Of a DNA stretch of 64,000 nucleotides, positions 8,543-20,208 are shown piece after piece (within the stretch, counting starts at the first letter, position 1; every line of letters begins with the position of its first letter). The stretch comes from Clostridia bacterium. GTDB taxonomy: Bacteria; Bacillota; Clostridia; Christensenellales; CAG-138. The notes under the pieces are model-generated. The model worked only from the letters and a program-made list of their open reading frames with translations, was not told the DNA's origin and did not search any database. The stretch is from assembly GCA_017614315.1 (NCBI GenBank), contig JAGACA010000013.1:1-64000 (forward strand), given 5' to 3'. A program made the position numbers and the translations under genes.

Positions 8543-10633
8543 ATGAGGGTGCCCAGAAAGTCCGGCGTTTTCTCAAGGCTTGAGCAGACGACCGTCGTCC
8601 GCGCGGTTCGCGGCGGCCTTACGAATATAATACCCGTTCTTACGGTCGGAGCGTTCGCGCTGATACTGAAGTCCTTCCCCGTCGACGCCTACCAGAAGGC
8701 GATCGCGGGATTCGCGGGGGGCTTTCTCCCCGAGCTGTTCAACATTGTTTTTCAGGCGACGTTCGGCGCGCTTTCGGTCTACATGACGTTCTCGATAAGC
8801 TGGGCGTTCATCAAGCTCAAGGCCGACGACGACACGGTCAAGGGCGGCGCGCTCGTCGCGTCCCTCATATCCTTCTTCATACTCGCCGGCGCGAACCTTT
8901 CCTCGTTCGGCACCGACAGCATGGGGCCGAAGTCGATGTTCCTCGCGATAATCACCGCGCTCGGCGCATCTTATCTGTACCTCGTTTTCTCCCACCTGCT
9001 CGCCAAGCGTTCGAGGAGGCTTTACACGACCGGCGGCGACCGTGATTTCAATCACATGCTCCGCACGCTGATCCCCATCGCGGCGGTCTCGCTCATCTTC
9101 GCGCTGTTCAACGCGCTGGTCATCCGCCTGTTCTCCGTCGATTCGTTCCGCTCCCTTGTCGCCGAGGTGTTCGATCAGCTCTTCTCGTTCGGTCACGCCG
9201 GATTCATAAAGGGCTTCCTGTTCGTGTTCATATCCTCGATACTGTGGTTCTTCGGCATACACGGCAGCGACATACTCGAGGGCGTGATGCAGACATATTT
9301 CGTCCCCGGGCTCCAGGCCAACCAGGCAGCGGTGCTCGTGGGGGGCGCGCCGGTGAACGTGCTTACGAAGGAATTCTTCGACTGCTTCGTTCTGATGGGC
9401 GGCTGCGGCGCGACCATATGCCTTCTTATCGCCATACTGCTGTTCTCCCGCAGCCGTTCGCGGCGAAGGCTTGGACTTACTGCGGCGTTCCCGATGATTT
9501 TCAACATAAACGAGCTGATGGTGTTCGGGATTCCCATTATCCTCAATCCGATAATGCTGATCCCCTTCCTGCTCGTTCCGCTCGTATGCTACTCGACGGC
9601 GTATTTCGCGATCTACATGGGCTGGGTGCCCATGATAACGAGCTCCGTCGAATGGACGACGCCGATACTGCTCGGCGGCTTCCGCTCCACCGGCTCGATC
9701 GCGGGCTCGATACTCCAGCTTGTGAACGTGGCGCTGGGCGTTTTGATCTATCTTCCCTTCGTCCGAATGCTCGACCGCCAGTCCGAGGAGGACGTCCGCC
9801 GCGGATTCGAATCGTTCATGGAGTTCTACCGCAGGAACGAGCCGGAGCTCCTTGGCCTCAGTCTTATCGACCGCGGCGACGTTTACGGCGATTTCGCGAA
9901 GAATCTTTGTGAGGAGCTCAAAAACGATCTTCCAGAAAAAGTCGTGCTCTATTATCAGCCGCAGTATCATTACAACGGCTCGCTGATCGGCGTCGAGGCG
10001 CTCCTGCGCTACAAGCACCCCATCCACGGGATGCTTTATCCGCCGCTTATATTCAAGCTTGCCGAGGACGGCGGCTTCCTGCCCGAGCTTGAGGAGGCGG
10101 TGCTCGCGGCCGCGCTCCGCGACCGGGATAAGGTCCTTGCGCGGTTCGGCGCGGACGTCAAGCTTTCCGTCAATGTAACTGGCACCACCATCGTGAGCCC
10201 GAGGTTCATCGAGTACTGCCGCGAGCTGAACGAAAAGGCTCCCTTTGACGGCAAGAACATCTGCCTTGAGGTTACCGAGCAGGCGGCGCTCCTCTTCAAC
10301 GGCGACACGATGCGCATACTGCGCGAGCTCCGCGACATGGGCATGCTGCTCGCGATCGACGACTTCTCCATGGGTCAGACCTCGCTCCATTATCTTGCGG
10401 ATAACCTGTTCGACCTCGTCAAGCTCGACGGGTCGCTGGTGCGCGGACTGTTCACGCACACGAACACGCGTGAGATAATCGCCTCGGTCGTGCGCCTTGC
10501 GGATTCGCTGGAAATAAAGGTGCTTGCCGAGTTCGTCGAGACCGAAGAGCAGCGGCAGGCTCTGCACGAGATCGGCTGCGACCGCTACCAGGGTTACCTC
10601 TACTCCGCCGCAGTGCCGCTTGACAGGAATTGA
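8543..10633 (+). CDS. PTS EIIC permease domain fused to an EAL c-di-GMP phosphodiesterase
   Basis: The protein has 696 residues. Residues about 10-430 match the EIIC membrane domain of the lactose/cellobiose PTS family, including FFGIHGSDILEGVM and the NINELMVFGIPIILNP stretch that holds the sugar-binding Glu in relatives. Residues about 450-690 are an EAL domain: GVEALLRY near 482, Asn in SVNVTG, ExTE-type EVTEQ, DDFSMGQTSL near 605, Lys in VKLDGS, Glu in LAEFVE and Gln in YQGYLY. The expected metal and catalytic residues are therefore present. There is no EIIA or EIIB domain in the protein or nearby, so phosphotransfer transport is unlikely. The likely role is a sugar- or membrane-signal-controlled c-di-GMP phosphodiesterase. 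Confidence 0.9.
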   Translation: MRVPRKSGVFSRLEQTTVVRAVRGGLTNIIPVLTVGAFALILKSFPVDAYQKAIAGFAGGFLPELFNIVFQATFGALSVYMTFSISWAFIKLKADDDTVKGGALVASLISFFILAGANLSSFGTDSMGPKSMFLAIITALGASYLYLVFSHLLAKRSRRLYTTGGDRDFNHMLRTLIPIAAVSLIFALFNALVIRLFSVDSFRSLVAEVFDQLFSFGHAGFIKGFLFVFISSILWFFGIHGSDILEGVMQTYFVPGLQANQAAVLVGGAPVNVLTKEFFDCFVLMGGCGATICLLIAILLFSRSRSRRRLGLTAAFPMIFNINELMVFGIPIILNPIMLIPFLLVPLVCYSTAYFAIYMGWVPMITSSVEWTTPILLGGFRSTGSIAGSILQLVNVALGVLIYLPFVRMLDRQSEEDVRRGFESFMEFYRRNEPELLGLSLIDRGDVYGDFAKNLCEELKNDLPEKVVLYYQPQYHYNGSLIGVEALLRYKHPIHGMLYPPLIFKLAEDGGFLPELEEAVLAAALRDRDKVLARFGADVKLSVNVTGTTIVSPRFIEYCRELNEKAPFDGKNICLEVTEQAALLFNGDTMRILRELRDMGMLLAIDDFSMGQTSLHYLADNLFDLVKLDGSLVRGLFTHTNTREIIASVVRLADSLEIKVLAEFVETEEQRQALHEIGCDRYQGYLYSAAVPLDRN

Positions 10634-10643
10634 TCGGTAAAGC

Positions 10644-10675
10644 AAAGGGCCGTGAGATGATCTCACGGCCCTTTT
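10644..10675. terminator. Bidirectional terminator between EIIC-EAL gene and glgP
   Basis: Stem AAAGGGCCGTGAGA/TCTCACGGCCCTTT followed by TTTTT. Confidence 0.9.
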
Positions 10676-16847: not shown

Positions 16848-17384
16848 TCAAGCGAAAGCTCTAAACCGTTCAAAGGGCAGTATCAAAATGCGCGCGGCGC
16901 CGTAGACCTCGGAATAGGGGAAGATGAAGCGTTCGGGATCGAGCACGCCCGAACGGTCGTCGGGAAGCAGAAGCAGCGAGCCCTCGGGGATCGTCACGCT
17001 GAAATCGACGCCTTCGCTCCACGAGCCGCCGTAGGCGCTCTCGTCGATGAGCGCGCCGTCAAGGTACGCCCTGCCGTTCCTAACGGTGTATTCCTGACCG
17101 CCGGCCGCGGCGCAGCGCAGGAAGAACACGCCCTCCTCCGTCCTTGCGTTCAGCACGTCGCCGAGCTCGTAATCGACGAAGAACCTCGACACCCTGTCGA
17201 CCAGCACGACGTCTCCCTCCTTAAGCTCCTTCACGCTGTCCGCGCCGACTTCGCAGGGGACGAGCGCGAAGCGGAAAAGAAGGAAGACGATGAGTACGGA
17301 GACCACGAGCACGACCGCAACGTCGGCGGCGCGCCACAGGTATGAGTCCGTTCTCGTATAGGTGCTTCTGACCGTGTAATCCAT
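16848..17384 (-). CDS. Signal-peptidase-I paralogue lacking the catalytic lysine
   Basis: The protein has 178 residues with one N-terminal membrane helix (about 20-42) and an S24/S26-like beta fold. It aligns with the active signal peptidase encoded just upstream. GADSVKELKEGD lines up with GPSMQNTLQNGE, keeping Ser50 but losing the Met/Pro/Thr context by a one-residue deletion. The stretch FFLRCAAAGGQ lines up with FVKRIVATAGQ, so the general-base Lys is Leu89. The GDHR-type box is reduced to PDDRSGVLDPER. It should be inactive as a Ser/Lys protease. The start overlaps the stop of the active enzyme by one base (TGATG), implying coupled translation and perhaps a complex. Confidence 0.75.
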   Translation of the reverse strand: MDYTVRSTYTRTDSYLWRAADVAVVLVVSVLIVFLLFRFALVPCEVGADSVKELKEGDVVLVDRVSRFFVDYELGDVLNARTEEGVFFLRCAAAGGQEYTVRNGRAYLDGALIDESAYGGSWSEGVDFSVTIPEGSLLLLPDDRSGVLDPERFIFPYSEVYGAARILILPFERFRAFA

Positions 17385-18034
17385 CAGCTGACTTTCCTTA
17401 TGTTCTTAAACGGGAATACGACCCCGTGCACGCGGCCGATGACGTACGAAAGCGGTATCGCGCCGACCACGCGGGAGTCCTGGGAATTGGTGCGGTGATC
17501 GCCCATGACGAATATGCAGCCCTCGGGAACGGTGAAAACGCCGTCCTCCGCACCCTCGCAGGTGATCCTGTTATATCTGGTTATGCTGTCGATCAGCATG
17601 GTGTCTTCATACGCGGATTCGTCGAGCGGCTCTCCGTCGACGTACACCCGCATGACCGCCCCGGAGGACGACGCCTCGTTGGATACCTTCCTGACCTCGA
17701 CGGTCTGCCCGGCGGTCGCGACTATGCGCTTGACGAACGCCTCGTTCTCCCTGCCGGGGAAGTGGATTATGACTATGTCTCCCTGCTTGGGAGAGGCGAA
17801 CAGATAGCCTATCTTTTCGACGAAGCAGCGCTCTCCGTTCTGGAGGGTGTTCTGCATGGACGGGCCCTCCACGCGGACGGGCTCGAAAGCGAACGCCCTC
17901 ACGGCGAGCATTATGAGCACCAGCCACATGAGGAACCTTAAAAAATCGACGTTGCCCGCCGACCTGAAGCCGGGTTCCTTATCGTGCAGAGCTTCCGAAA
18001 GCTTAAGCGTTTTTTTTGCGTTACCGTCCATCAT
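17384..18034 (-). CDS. lepB: Type I signal peptidase
   Basis: The protein has 216 residues: a cytoplasmic N-terminus, one membrane helix at about 31-49, and a periplasm-facing S26 catalytic domain. The nucleophile is Ser59 in GPSMQNTL, the general base Lys102 in FVKRI, and the conserved GDHRTNSQDSR box lies near the end. It cleaves signal peptides of exported proteins. AAAGGAG precedes the double ATG (18034 or 18031). It overlaps the DUF951 gene upstream by 14 bases and the inactive paralogue downstream by one base, within the sortase operon. Confidence 0.93.
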   Translation of the reverse strand: MMDGNAKKTLKLSEALHDKEPGFRSAGNVDFLRFLMWLVLIMLAVRAFAFEPVRVEGPSMQNTLQNGERCFVEKIGYLFASPKQGDIVIIHFPGRENEAFVKRIVATAGQTVEVRKVSNEASSSGAVMRVYVDGEPLDESAYEDTMLIDSITRYNRITCEGAEDGVFTVPEGCIFVMGDHRTNSQDSRVVGAIPLSYVIGRVHGVVFPFKNIRKVS

Positions 18035-18221
18035 CTTCTCCTTTGAGCATCTTTGCCGCCCTCAGAAAGTCGCCCCTATCGAGCATTACCGTCCGCCCGC
18101 AGAAGACGCATTTTATCTTTACGTCGGCGCCCGTCCTCGTGATCTCCCATTCGTTGGCGCCGCAGGCGTGCGGCTTGCGCATTATCACGCGGTCTCCGAC
18201 CTTGAAATCGTTGGATATCAT
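18021..18221 (-). CDS. DUF951 family small protein
   Basis: The protein has 66 residues. The family pattern is clear: FKVGDRVIMRKPHACG, then EWEITRTGADVKIKC, CxxC (CVFCGRTVML) and an RxDF segment. DUF951 is a short single-domain family, widespread in Firmicutes, with an OB-like/SH3-like predicted fold and a probable metal site; its function is not established. It sits between the sortase gene (4 bases upstream) and lepB (overlap), so it is cotranscribed with them. Confidence 0.88.
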   Translation of the reverse strand: MISNDFKVGDRVIMRKPHACGANEWEITRTGADVKIKCVFCGRTVMLDRGDFLRAAKMLKGEDDGR

Positions 18222-18225
18222 CCGA

Positions 18226-20208
18226 TCAATTGCCTCCGACCCATCTTAAGAAGAAATACAGCGCGGCGCCCTTCAGCGCGGCAATATGATCGTCGCCGCA
18301 GGTGTAGAGCGTCATGAACCTATCCTCGAGCACGACCTGTACCTCGTATCCGAGCTGGTTCCGTTCGAGCTGATACATGATCCATTCGAGCTTCTGCTCG
18401 TCGGTCTTCCTGTCGTAGGTGAGGGGCCAGTTGAGGTTGTAGAGCCTCGAAGACATGTACTCGTTCGGGAACGCGCCCTCCTCGTACATCGCCCATACCT
18501 CCCACCAGCCGCTTTCGCCGTAAACGTTTATGTACCAGACGCGGTTCTCGTAATCGTTCAGCGTCTCGCTCCTGTCCTGAATAACGTGGAGCTCGTGGAA
18601 CATGGTTCCGGTCGGGCGCGAGTTATGCCCCGCGATGACTATATTGCCTGTGGGCTTCTCATAGAAGTACGATATGCAGCCCCTTGCCAGTGTCTTTCTG
18701 TCTATGCCGTGATACTGATAAAAGAAATCGTCGCCGTAGAGTATCGGATAGCAGATATTGGTGTCGGGGAGCTCAATGTATCCCGTCGCGTCGGGGTTTA
18801 TGCGGCGGGCGACCGCAAGAGGCGTCGTGTACTTGTCCGTCTTGGCGTACTGGTCTATCGCGCCGCCGGACTGCGCTTCCTTGAGAATGAGCTCGATGTC
18901 GCTGACGTCGATCGATCCGGGCAGCTCCTCGTCCACTATTATGTTCGCGGCGCGCAGGTACGCTCCTTCGAGCGGCGCGGAACCGTCGGCGTGCGCCTTC
19001 GCGGCGTCGACATCCGAAAGATCTATCACGCCGTCGCCGTTCACGTCGCCCAAAAGCACGCATACCGCCTCGCGGGAAGCGCCCGTCGCGGGATCGAAAT
19101 AAGTCGTGATCTGACCGGTATGGACGGGTTCGCCGTCCATCTCGGATCCGGGCTGAAGCCCGAGGAGCCAGCCCTCGTCGGTCACGTACGGCAGGAGCCG
19201 CCACCAGCCGACCGTGAGCCTCAGATCGCGGTCCTCACCGAAGCCCTCCGCTCGGCCGCTGCCGTAAAGCACCACCGCGTGCTCTCTGCCCGCAGCGACG
19301 AAGTAGACGTCCTCGACCCCGTATGGAACGAACGGCGCGTCGGTCACGAGGGTCCCTCCCAATGTAACGGCGTACGTCGCGCCCTCCGCGGCGAACACCT
19401 TTATGAGATCGTTTCGGAAGAAGGGCTCCTTCTCCTCGCCGGTCGAAATATCGTAAGTCCTGACCTTTCCGTCCTCGCCGAGCGCCGCGAGGTGATCGGG
19501 AGCGGCGGCGATCGCCACGACGCGGTGCGCGTTGACGGCGTCGTCGAATTCCGCGCCCAGCGTGGTCTTCACGCCGAGCCAGTCGGTCAGCCCCGCGGTA
19601 TAGCTGCCCGCGGCATCGATCATGACGACACGCTTCCACGAAGAGACCTCCGCGCCGGCGCCTTCGCCCGCGGAAACGAGCGTGCCGTCGGCCTTAAGCC
19701 CCACGATATGCGCGTCTCCGAGCTTGATATCGACTATATCCGTCCACTCCTCCGCCTCGGGGAACGGGTTGACCGCGCCCGCGCCGGTGAAGAGGAGCGT
19801 CCCGTCGCCGGTGAGAGCTATCGTTCCCAGATCGTTTGTCGCGACCCTTCTTACGTCGGCCCAGCCGCGGATGTAATTCTGCCCGGCGGTCGGCCTGCCT
19901 ATGAACCGGATCGAGCCGTCGTCGGCCACGCCGAAGGTGCCGTGCTCGTCGGTGACGAGGAATGCGTCCCTTCCGGGGATCTCATTACAAACGAAGTCGG
20001 GCAGTATGGGCTCGGGAGTAACGGGGATCTCGGTCGGCGCCGACGTCGGAGCCAATGTCGTCGCGGGCGTGTCGGTGACTTCAGGCAGCTCTTCCGGAGC
20101 CTTCTTTTCCCTGACCTTCGGCAGTACGACGAACCACACGACCGCTATCGCCGCGGCAAGCGCGGCGAGCGCCGATATCTTGATGATATAGCCCTTTTTC
20201 GTTCGCAT
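18226..20208 (-). CDS. Class B sortase fused to RCC1-like repeats and a dockerin-type domain
   Basis: The protein has 660 residues. I chose the ATG at 20208, with GGAGACGGG before it; it begins MRTKKGYIIK. Order: membrane anchor about 8-28; Thr/Pro/Ala-rich linker 40-65; RCC1/beta-propeller-like repeats about 70-330 (units such as WTDIVDIKLGDAHIVGLKADGT); a dockerin-like pair, GDVNGDGVIDLSDVDAAK near 386 and GSIDVSDIELIL near 429; then a class B sortase domain from about 470. The sortase triad is visible: His in AGHNSR near 528, Cys in LYTCG near 636 and probably Arg in FLRWVG near 654. Sortases join surface proteins to the wall or to each other. It heads the operon that carries DUF951, two signal-peptidase homologues and a GT-C-like protein. 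Confidence 0.85.
   Translation of the reverse strand: MRTKKGYIIKISALAALAAAIAVVWFVVLPKVREKKAPEELPEVTDTPATTLAPTSAPTEIPVTPEPILPDFVCNEIPGRDAFLVTDEHGTFGVADDGSIRFIGRPTAGQNYIRGWADVRRVATNDLGTIALTGDGTLLFTGAGAVNPFPEAEEWTDIVDIKLGDAHIVGLKADGTLVSAGEGAGAEVSSWKRVVMIDAAGSYTAGLTDWLGVKTTLGAEFDDAVNAHRVVAIAAAPDHLAALGEDGKVRTYDISTGEEKEPFFRNDLIKVFAAEGATYAVTLGGTLVTDAPFVPYGVEDVYFVAAGREHAVVLYGSGRAEGFGEDRDLRLTVGWWRLLPYVTDEGWLLGLQPGSEMDGEPVHTGQITTYFDPATGASREAVCVLLGDVNGDGVIDLSDVDAAKAHADGSAPLEGAYLRAANIIVDEELPGSIDVSDIELILKEAQSGGAIDQYAKTDKYTTPLAVARRINPDATGYIELPDTNICYPILYGDDFFYQYHGIDRKTLARGCISYFYEKPTGNIVIAGHNSRPTGTMFHELHVIQDRSETLNDYENRVWYINVYGESGWWEVWAMYEEGAFPNEYMSSRLYNLNWPLTYDRKTDEQKLEWIMYQLERNQLGYEVQVVLEDRFMTLYTCGDDHIAALKGAALYFFLRWVGGN

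Follow-up and report, generated by a model that had tools for sequence, protein, structure and literature searches.

The window, a stretch of 64,000 nucleotides from an uncultured gut bacterium (Clostridia), carries on its minus strand a single open frame that runs from an ATG at position 20208 to a stop codon at 18226-18228, with a GGAG eight bases upstream of the start. The frame encodes one chain in which a membrane segment and a Thr/Pro-rich spacer are followed by an RCC1-like propeller, a dockerin-like module and a class B sortase domain (Table 1), and this layout agrees with the original prediction made from the DNA letters. Direct reading revealed no lipobox Cys around the membrane anchor of the window copy; a lipobox-like LxxC was read by eye in several of its relatives. 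The propeller region comprises, by eye, about seven repeats of 30-40 residues each, for which residues 115, 154, 190, 229, 268, 298 and 335 were chosen by hand as landmarks.

Table 1. Positions in the window of the gene, its domains and key codons, and the conserved neighbouring genes.
Feature	Residues	Positions	Strand	Basis or remark
Whole gene, RCC1-like / dockerin-like / class B sortase protein	660 aa + stop	18226..20208	minus	
N-terminal hydrophobic membrane anchor	~9-29	20122..20184	minus	direct sequence reading
Thr/Pro-rich spacer	~36-71	19996..20103	minus	direct sequence reading
RCC1-like propeller region	72-345	19174..19995	minus	RCC1_2; family profile vs BLIP-II/RCC1
Dockerin-like module	381-447	18868..19068	minus	family profile vs solved dockerins
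Calcium loop 1, DVNGDGVIDLSD, canonical	388-399	19012..19047	minus	D388 and D399 invariant, 28/28
Loop 2, DEELPGSIDVSD, non-canonical, Pro at ligand position 5	426-437	18898..18933	minus	loop placed by eye
Class B sortase domain	456-660	18229..18843	minus	Pfam/NCBIfam matches; family profile
Catalytic His codon	528	18625..18627	minus	invariant, 28/28
Catalytic Cys codon (TLYTC)	637	18298..18300	minus	invariant, 28/28
Ala codon GCG at the place of the catalytic Arg	649	18262..18264	minus	Arg in 27/27 aligned full-length relatives
DUF951 gene, conserved neighbour, begins 4 bases past the sortase stop		18024..18221	minus	PF06107, 5.5e-24
Type I signal peptidase, conserved neighbour		17384..18034	minus	PF10502, 7.6e-42
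Second S26 signal-peptidase-like protein, conserved neighbour		16848..17384	minus	PF10502, 1.5e-7
Apparently polytopic membrane protein, conserved neighbour	697 aa	14739..16832	minus	weak DUF6798/Dpy19 matches, both below cut-off

Domain searches bore out the RCC1 assignment directly, as RCC1_2 matched the window copy at 3.3e-9 (36.7 bits, over the cut-off of 22) and 27 of the 28 family members at E<=0.01; WD40_RLD (3.5e-7) stayed under its cut-off. For the sortase, the Pfam profile PF04203 was barely over its cut-off of 26.6 bits on the protein itself (2.1e-6, 27.9 bits) and barely under it in genome-wide searches (26.1 bits). The best NCBIfam match was indeed the class B sortase profile TIGR03064 (E = 4.3e-10), but at 39.3 bits it lay far below the cut-off of 153.75. 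For the family as a whole, a profile of 28 aligned full-length members (A1), compared with the sequences of solved structures, matched sortase B at 2.9e-23. The N-terminal half of the same profile matched BLIP-II (2.8e-11) and RCC1 (5.8e-11), and for its dockerin-like part the matches were 8x39 (labelled as a serine protease; 1.5e-9), 2ccl_B (xylanase Y; 1.9e-7) and 3ul4_B (labelled as a type I dockerin; 7.5e-5). Thus, the propeller, dockerin-like and sortase domains are all supported at the level of sequence.

That such a chain might consist of separate genes joined by a sequencing or assembly error, a case raised with the original prediction, was ruled out by its relatives. Propeller and sortase parts share one frame in at least 35 of 103 family genomes, from 12 of 26 genera (a hand count among the matches listed, hence a lower bound), and the gene order around the fused gene is the same in ten genomes of the genus. 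Some match was present in 98 of the 103 genomes, many of these to the propeller part alone. A first scan of genome contigs with the sortase part alone as query returned no relatives, and a second with A1 returned 39 loci, which overlap with the genomes of the former count, so that the two figures are not independent. The dockerin-like part was read between propeller and sortase in the 28 members of A1, out of the at least 35 genomes with the fusion. Relatives with names come mostly from gut and rumen assemblies labelled Clostridia, Clostridiales, Christensenella sp. or Christensenellaceae. Judged from these sequence comparisons, this is a conserved family of membrane- or lipid-anchored class B sortases, in which an RCC1/BLIP-II-like propeller and a dockerin-like linker precede the enzyme (propeller-sortases hereafter).

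In all ten other genomes of the genus that bear the gene, and in G003 of genus g4, it adjoins the DUF951 gene, the two signal peptidases and a protein of about 700 residues, the last of which was found in 12 of the 13 genus genomes. None of these neighbours was found at five of six further contexts examined (G016, G023, G024, G005 and G033); in the sixth, G022, the cluster lies close to the sortase gene but on the opposite strand. Two of the 13 genus genomes have no propeller-sortase. In G087, the sortase alone is missing from an intact neighbourhood, where DUF951 and the signal peptidases come right after a nitrilase gene (L229, G087:C30, ~9062-9233). In G086 (94% complete), the adjoining 700-residue protein was also not found. 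Elsewhere in the window, positions 8576-10666 hold another open frame of 697 residues with zero Pfam matches at 0.001.

The original prediction had credited the sortase with its His, its Cys and a probable Arg. The first two are in place as His528 and Cys637, but residue 649, where the Arg should stand, is Ala. All 27 relatives in A1 have the complete set of His, Cys and Arg, and the window copy is the only member that lacks the Arg. The column of residue 649 lines up with the Arg of five other class B type sortases, and Arg was read at all 38 of the 39 A1-scan loci where the catalytic region was readable (L124 being the locus left out). An ordinary intact catalytic set in the window copy was rejected on this alignment. 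The catalytic Arg217 of C. difficile SrtB lies at the start of the last strand (PMC5118464), and the SrtA Arg that matches this site is called catalytically essential (PMC4155245). Since the catalytic Arg is replaced by Ala, an active enzyme at a surface complex is unlikely for the window copy, which is probably a disabled or strongly impaired sortase.

The rest of the sortase domain has changed as well, and it is the only domain of the window protein outside the identity range of the genus. Its mean identity to the ten other genus members is 55.3%, against 63.2-71.0% for the others; the corresponding values are 44.1% against 43.4-52.5% for the propeller and 52.9% against 46.7-60.0% for the dockerin-like part. 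Columns that are otherwise invariant in the genus are changed in the window copy at 11 of 88 sortase positions (other members, at most 4 of 81), 4 of 42 propeller positions (others, up to 7 of 45) and 0 of 24 dockerin-like positions. The TIGR03064 score of the window copy is the lowest among the 11 such proteins of the genus (41.7 against 60.8-76.6 bits). The terminal branch of the window copy is 0.79 against 0.00-0.41 in the sortase tree, 0.74 against a next value of 0.67 in the propeller tree, and 0.50 against up to 0.73 in the tree of the dockerin-like part. The long sortase branch may partly reflect an early split, since the root-to-tip distance of L006 from G088 (0.76) nearly equals that of the window copy (0.79) and support values are weak. 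We read the excess change as lost or altered constraint on the sortase part. Some function is nevertheless probably kept, because the frame is intact and 55% mean identity remains.

Could Ala649 be a sequencing or assembly error in an otherwise ordinary, active member? The residue comes from a single assembly, an incomplete draft in 21 contigs. However, a base-calling error at codon 649 would need at least two bases, because GCG is two or three bases away from the Arg codons (CGC, AGG and AGA) of eight relatives read. Besides, the frame is intact on both sides of the codon, ten further genus-invariant sortase columns are changed along with it, and the scaffoldin motif described below, on another contig, is broken too. 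We therefore give little credence to an error at this site.

In each of the two calcium loops of a type I dockerin, positions 1, 3, 5, 9 and 12 are occupied by acidic or amide side chains. By this rule, the first loop of the window copy conforms and the second fails at position 5. The Dockerin_1 profile scored 12.4 bits, under its cut-off of 22.9, and at E<=0.01 it matched 18 of the 28 family members, the window copy not among them. Aligned with hhalign against the 17 canonical dockerins that exceed the cut-off in the window's genome, the sortase module was homologous with a probability of 96%. A two-repeat dockerin as claimed at the outset was thus not confirmed in the window copy, in view of the low profile score and the non-canonical second loop.

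From this module, the original prediction had proposed that an active sortase is docked on a cohesin-bearing scaffold at a defined surface complex. The modular sortase is indeed conserved and possible partners are encoded: a genome search for cohesins, suggested at the same time, found four modules in two proteins of the window's genome, three of them in one scaffoldin of 540 residues, and cohesins are present in all 13 genus genomes. In contrast, a DALLxLR-type helix motif found in both repeats of all 17 genome dockerins is absent from every one of the 28 sortase modules, and G032 (95% complete) has a sortase with the first calcium loop present and zero cohesin matches. The internal position of the module is a weak point against docking, as 16 of the 17 genome dockerins are C-terminal, ending 6-21 residues before the chain end, whereas one (L046) is internal with at least 500 residues after it. 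With the non-canonical second loop and the missing Arg of the window copy added, docking through the dockerin-like module is possible but not favoured, and the docking of an active enzyme as first proposed is quite unlikely. The dockerin-like part may rather be a linker ahead of the sortase domain, probably stabilised by calcium.

The cohesin scaffoldins of the genus, in which the number of cohesins varies, close with a hydrophobic segment and a basic tail, preceded in 10 of the 12 genomes read by PPVTG, PPITG or PPQTG (the tail of G082 is cut off by a contig end, and that of G083 was taken from two single-cohesin frames). The motif is broken in the window's genome (NPW-G) and in G086 (PPHEG), where no class B sortase was matched. 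G086 also has the scaffoldin most similar to that of the window's genome (68% identity), and the two broken motifs may go back to one event in a shared ancestor. The C-terminal sorting signals that the original prediction had proposed to look for thus exist on the cohesin scaffoldins of the genus, and are broken in the window's own genome. Gram_pos_anchor (PF00746) had zero matches in the window's genome; six of the 13 genus genomes have one.

Searching the DNA of the window's genome for a PPxTG/SPxTG pattern proved too unspecific (160 matches against 104 in the reversed control), and an alignment of 12 tails (A2) was used in its place. A2 favours PPxTG-like tails, because all 12 are PPxTG tails taken from genera g1 and g4; it does not include the broken tails of G086 and the window's genome, the TPKTG tails of G034, or the G089 tail, which is almost identical to that of G079. 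The resulting model matched 33 of the 103 family genomes. Seventy distinct tails were found, of which 65 have a PxTG core after any residue (PPxTG in 47 of these); the five without it belong to the window's genome, G086, L152, L260 and L272. Eight tail-bearing proteins of relatives were scanned: two of them combine cohesins with cleaved-adhesin domains, three are 5'-nucleotidases, and no informative match was obtained for the remaining three. C. difficile SrtB cleaves (S/P)PXTG, and a 5'-nucleotidase is among its putative substrates (PMC4155245).

Some tail-bearing proteins deserve mention on their own. L264, L265 and L291 are 5'-nucleotidases with PPxTG tails, like the putative C. difficile substrate, and L276 and L285 are large proteins joining cleaved-adhesin domains, cohesins and a PxTG tail. 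In eight genus genomes, a secreted protein of some 370-450 residues with a PPxTG tail lies a few kilobases from a cohesin protein (L066, L256, L263, L267, L268, L269, L270 and L271; homology of all eight judged by eye). Two scanned copies had zero Pfam matches, and the A2 search found no such protein in the window's genome.

Loss of the Arg and of the scaffoldin motif in one genome could also mean a switch of specificity, in which Arg to Ala and PPxTG to NPW-G changed together into an altered but working pair. In a modelled complex of C. difficile SrtB with PPKTG, Arg217 bonds the P1 Thr (PMC5118464); the changed tail of the window's scaffoldin has lost that Thr and keeps its hydrophobic and basic parts. 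Against such a switch, the Arg is retained in 27 of 27 relatives, its SrtA counterpart is described as essential, and G086 lost the motif without having any class B sortase match. We consider the switch very improbable.

At the level of genera, tails and propeller-sortases tend to occur together. Tails were found in 8 of 12 genera with a propeller-sortase and in 1 of 14 without, the latter a weak match (Fisher, 0.003, uncorrected for relatedness); when two genera with weak tails only are set aside, the figures are 7 of 12 and 0 of 14 (Fisher, 0.001, likewise uncorrected). Within the genus, ten genomes with an Arg-intact enzyme have 1-3 tails each, against none in the window's genome, none in G086 and one in G087 (Mann-Whitney, 0.007, from few and related genomes, some of them incomplete). 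Tails per genome were counted by hand after weak motif-less tails (G079:C52 and G080:C21) had been dropped; one of the three tails of G084 was not read to its end, and the result is unchanged with two. For the scaffoldin PPxTG alone, the comparison is 9 of 9 genomes with an Arg-intact enzyme against 1 of 3 without (Fisher, 0.045). When genera g1, g4 and g13 are pooled, motif tails are present in 18 of 18 genomes with an Arg-intact enzyme and in 5 of 7 without (Fisher, 0.07).

Five genomes have PPxTG or xPPTG tails and apparently no propeller-sortase, which weakens the link between enzyme and substrate. One is G087 of the genus, where the search for a propeller-sortase gave zero matches, yet the scaffoldin keeps PPVTG. 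In the others, G020, G021, G025 and G026 of genus g13, the top matches are weak at 7.7e-12 to 4.6e-9, compared with 2.9e-71 to 2.5e-115 for g13 genomes bearing the gene; among the matches listed, G021 is the only one of these four to appear, with a propeller match. All five have other sortases. Together with the association over g1, g4 and g13 and the possibly shared motif loss, these genomes mean that the PPxTG proteins could be handled by a second type of sortase, either by itself or next to the propeller-sortase.

A conventional sortase, for which C18:40337 is the candidate in the window's genome, would then anchor the PPxTG proteins, and the propeller-sortase would have other substrates. 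The window's genome has three sortases besides the propeller type. Sortase matches in frames of fewer than 400 residues, besides or instead of the propeller type, are present in 12 of the 13 genus genomes, G087 included; in G089 (61% complete), the propeller type is the sole sortase match. However, the C. difficile enzyme that cleaves PPxTG is of class B, and 9 of the 13 genus genomes have the propeller type as their sole class B match, with an extra one in two and none in two. Furthermore, conventional sortases do not explain the loss of the scaffoldin motif, because both genomes with a broken motif (the window's and G086) have them. We therefore hold it unlikely that a conventional sortase does this work in place of the propeller-sortase.

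Around these other sortases of the window's genome (G000), a second RCC1-repeat protein (L002, G000:C18:44190; a frame of 554 residues) was seen about 3.5 kb from a conventional sortase gene. L073 (G000:C2) and L074 (G000:C16) each comprise a small sortase and a pair of related proteins, and the two sortases are very similar by eye; both loci look like copies of a mobile element. L074 also holds a repeat-rich surface protein of 1080 residues.

The reading that we prefer, with a probability of roughly 0.55, is that this modular class B sortase serves to anchor surface proteins with PPxTG signals, including scaffoldins, and that in the window's genome it has decayed along with the motif of its substrate. 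In the relatives, the enzyme would most likely cut and anchor surface proteins with PPxTG-type C-terminal signals, cohesin scaffoldins and 5'-nucleotidases probably among them, and these exported proteins may also be processed by the signal peptidases of the same cluster. A surface partner is the most likely target of the propeller, and the dockerin-like module would serve mainly as a rigid, calcium-bound spacer. In the window's genome, the loss of both the catalytic Arg and the scaffoldin PPxTG is what suggests a disabled or strongly impaired sortase. This copy may be kept for its non-catalytic modules or be on its way to loss, and the scaffoldin would be held in the membrane by its hydrophobic tail.

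A bolder version would have the sortase load itself: the module would grip the cohesins of the very scaffoldins whose PPxTG tails the enzyme cuts, with the propeller as a second contact, and in the window's genome this pair would have come apart or altered its chemistry on both sides. If true, enzyme and substrate would be held together before anchoring; we regard it as improbable. The occurrence of the propeller-sortase family alongside PPxTG cohesin scaffoldins suggests a way in which gut bacteria may attach their surface enzyme complexes to the cell wall. The parallel loss of catalytic Arg and scaffoldin motif in a single genome offers a natural test of whether this enzyme and this substrate belong together.

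In most descriptions, sortases are small enzymes that stand alone. Our literature searches found neither an RCC1/BLIP-II-like propeller fused to a sortase nor a combination of sortase, dockerin and RCC1. Searches on sortase, scaffoldin, class B and Christensenell returned none on this fusion among the titles listed; those on sortase with RCC1 or with pseudoenzyme returned other subjects only, judged by title or the start of the abstract; and one on class B sortases with a domain fusion found nothing. The available parts of PMC2930009 and PMC11557425, both on sortase-anchored scaffoldins, make no mention of a sortase with its own dockerin-like module.

The dockerin-like module resembles type I dockerins in its first calcium loop and in overall homology. 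It differs from them in its degenerate second repeat, in lacking the helix motif of the genome's dockerins and in its place between two domains. BLIP-II and RCC1-like propellers share the repeat type and are among the best matches of the family's N-terminal half; BLIP-II, however, is a separate inhibitor protein, and here the propeller is fused to a sortase. As for the enzyme, the solved chains 5b23 and 5gyj, which we take to be clostridial class B sortases (SrtB), and 4ux7 share with the family the sortase domain, the His, the Cys in TLxTC and a candidate motif of PPxTG type. Known SrtB enzymes are short and stand alone, whereas a propeller and a dockerin-like module precede the enzyme in this family. 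Chain 4ux7 is C. difficile SrtB, in which the Arg follows the Cys by 8 residues (Cys209, Arg217; PMC5118464); it follows by about 12 in the family, and the window copy has Ala there. Finally, ScaE of Ruminococcus flavefaciens and other sortase-anchored scaffoldins offer a parallel from a gut bacterium, in which a sortase attaches a cohesin protein to the wall (PMC2930009 and PMC11557425), although the motif in the ScaE system is LPXTG (PMC2930009) and the candidate motif here is PPxTG.
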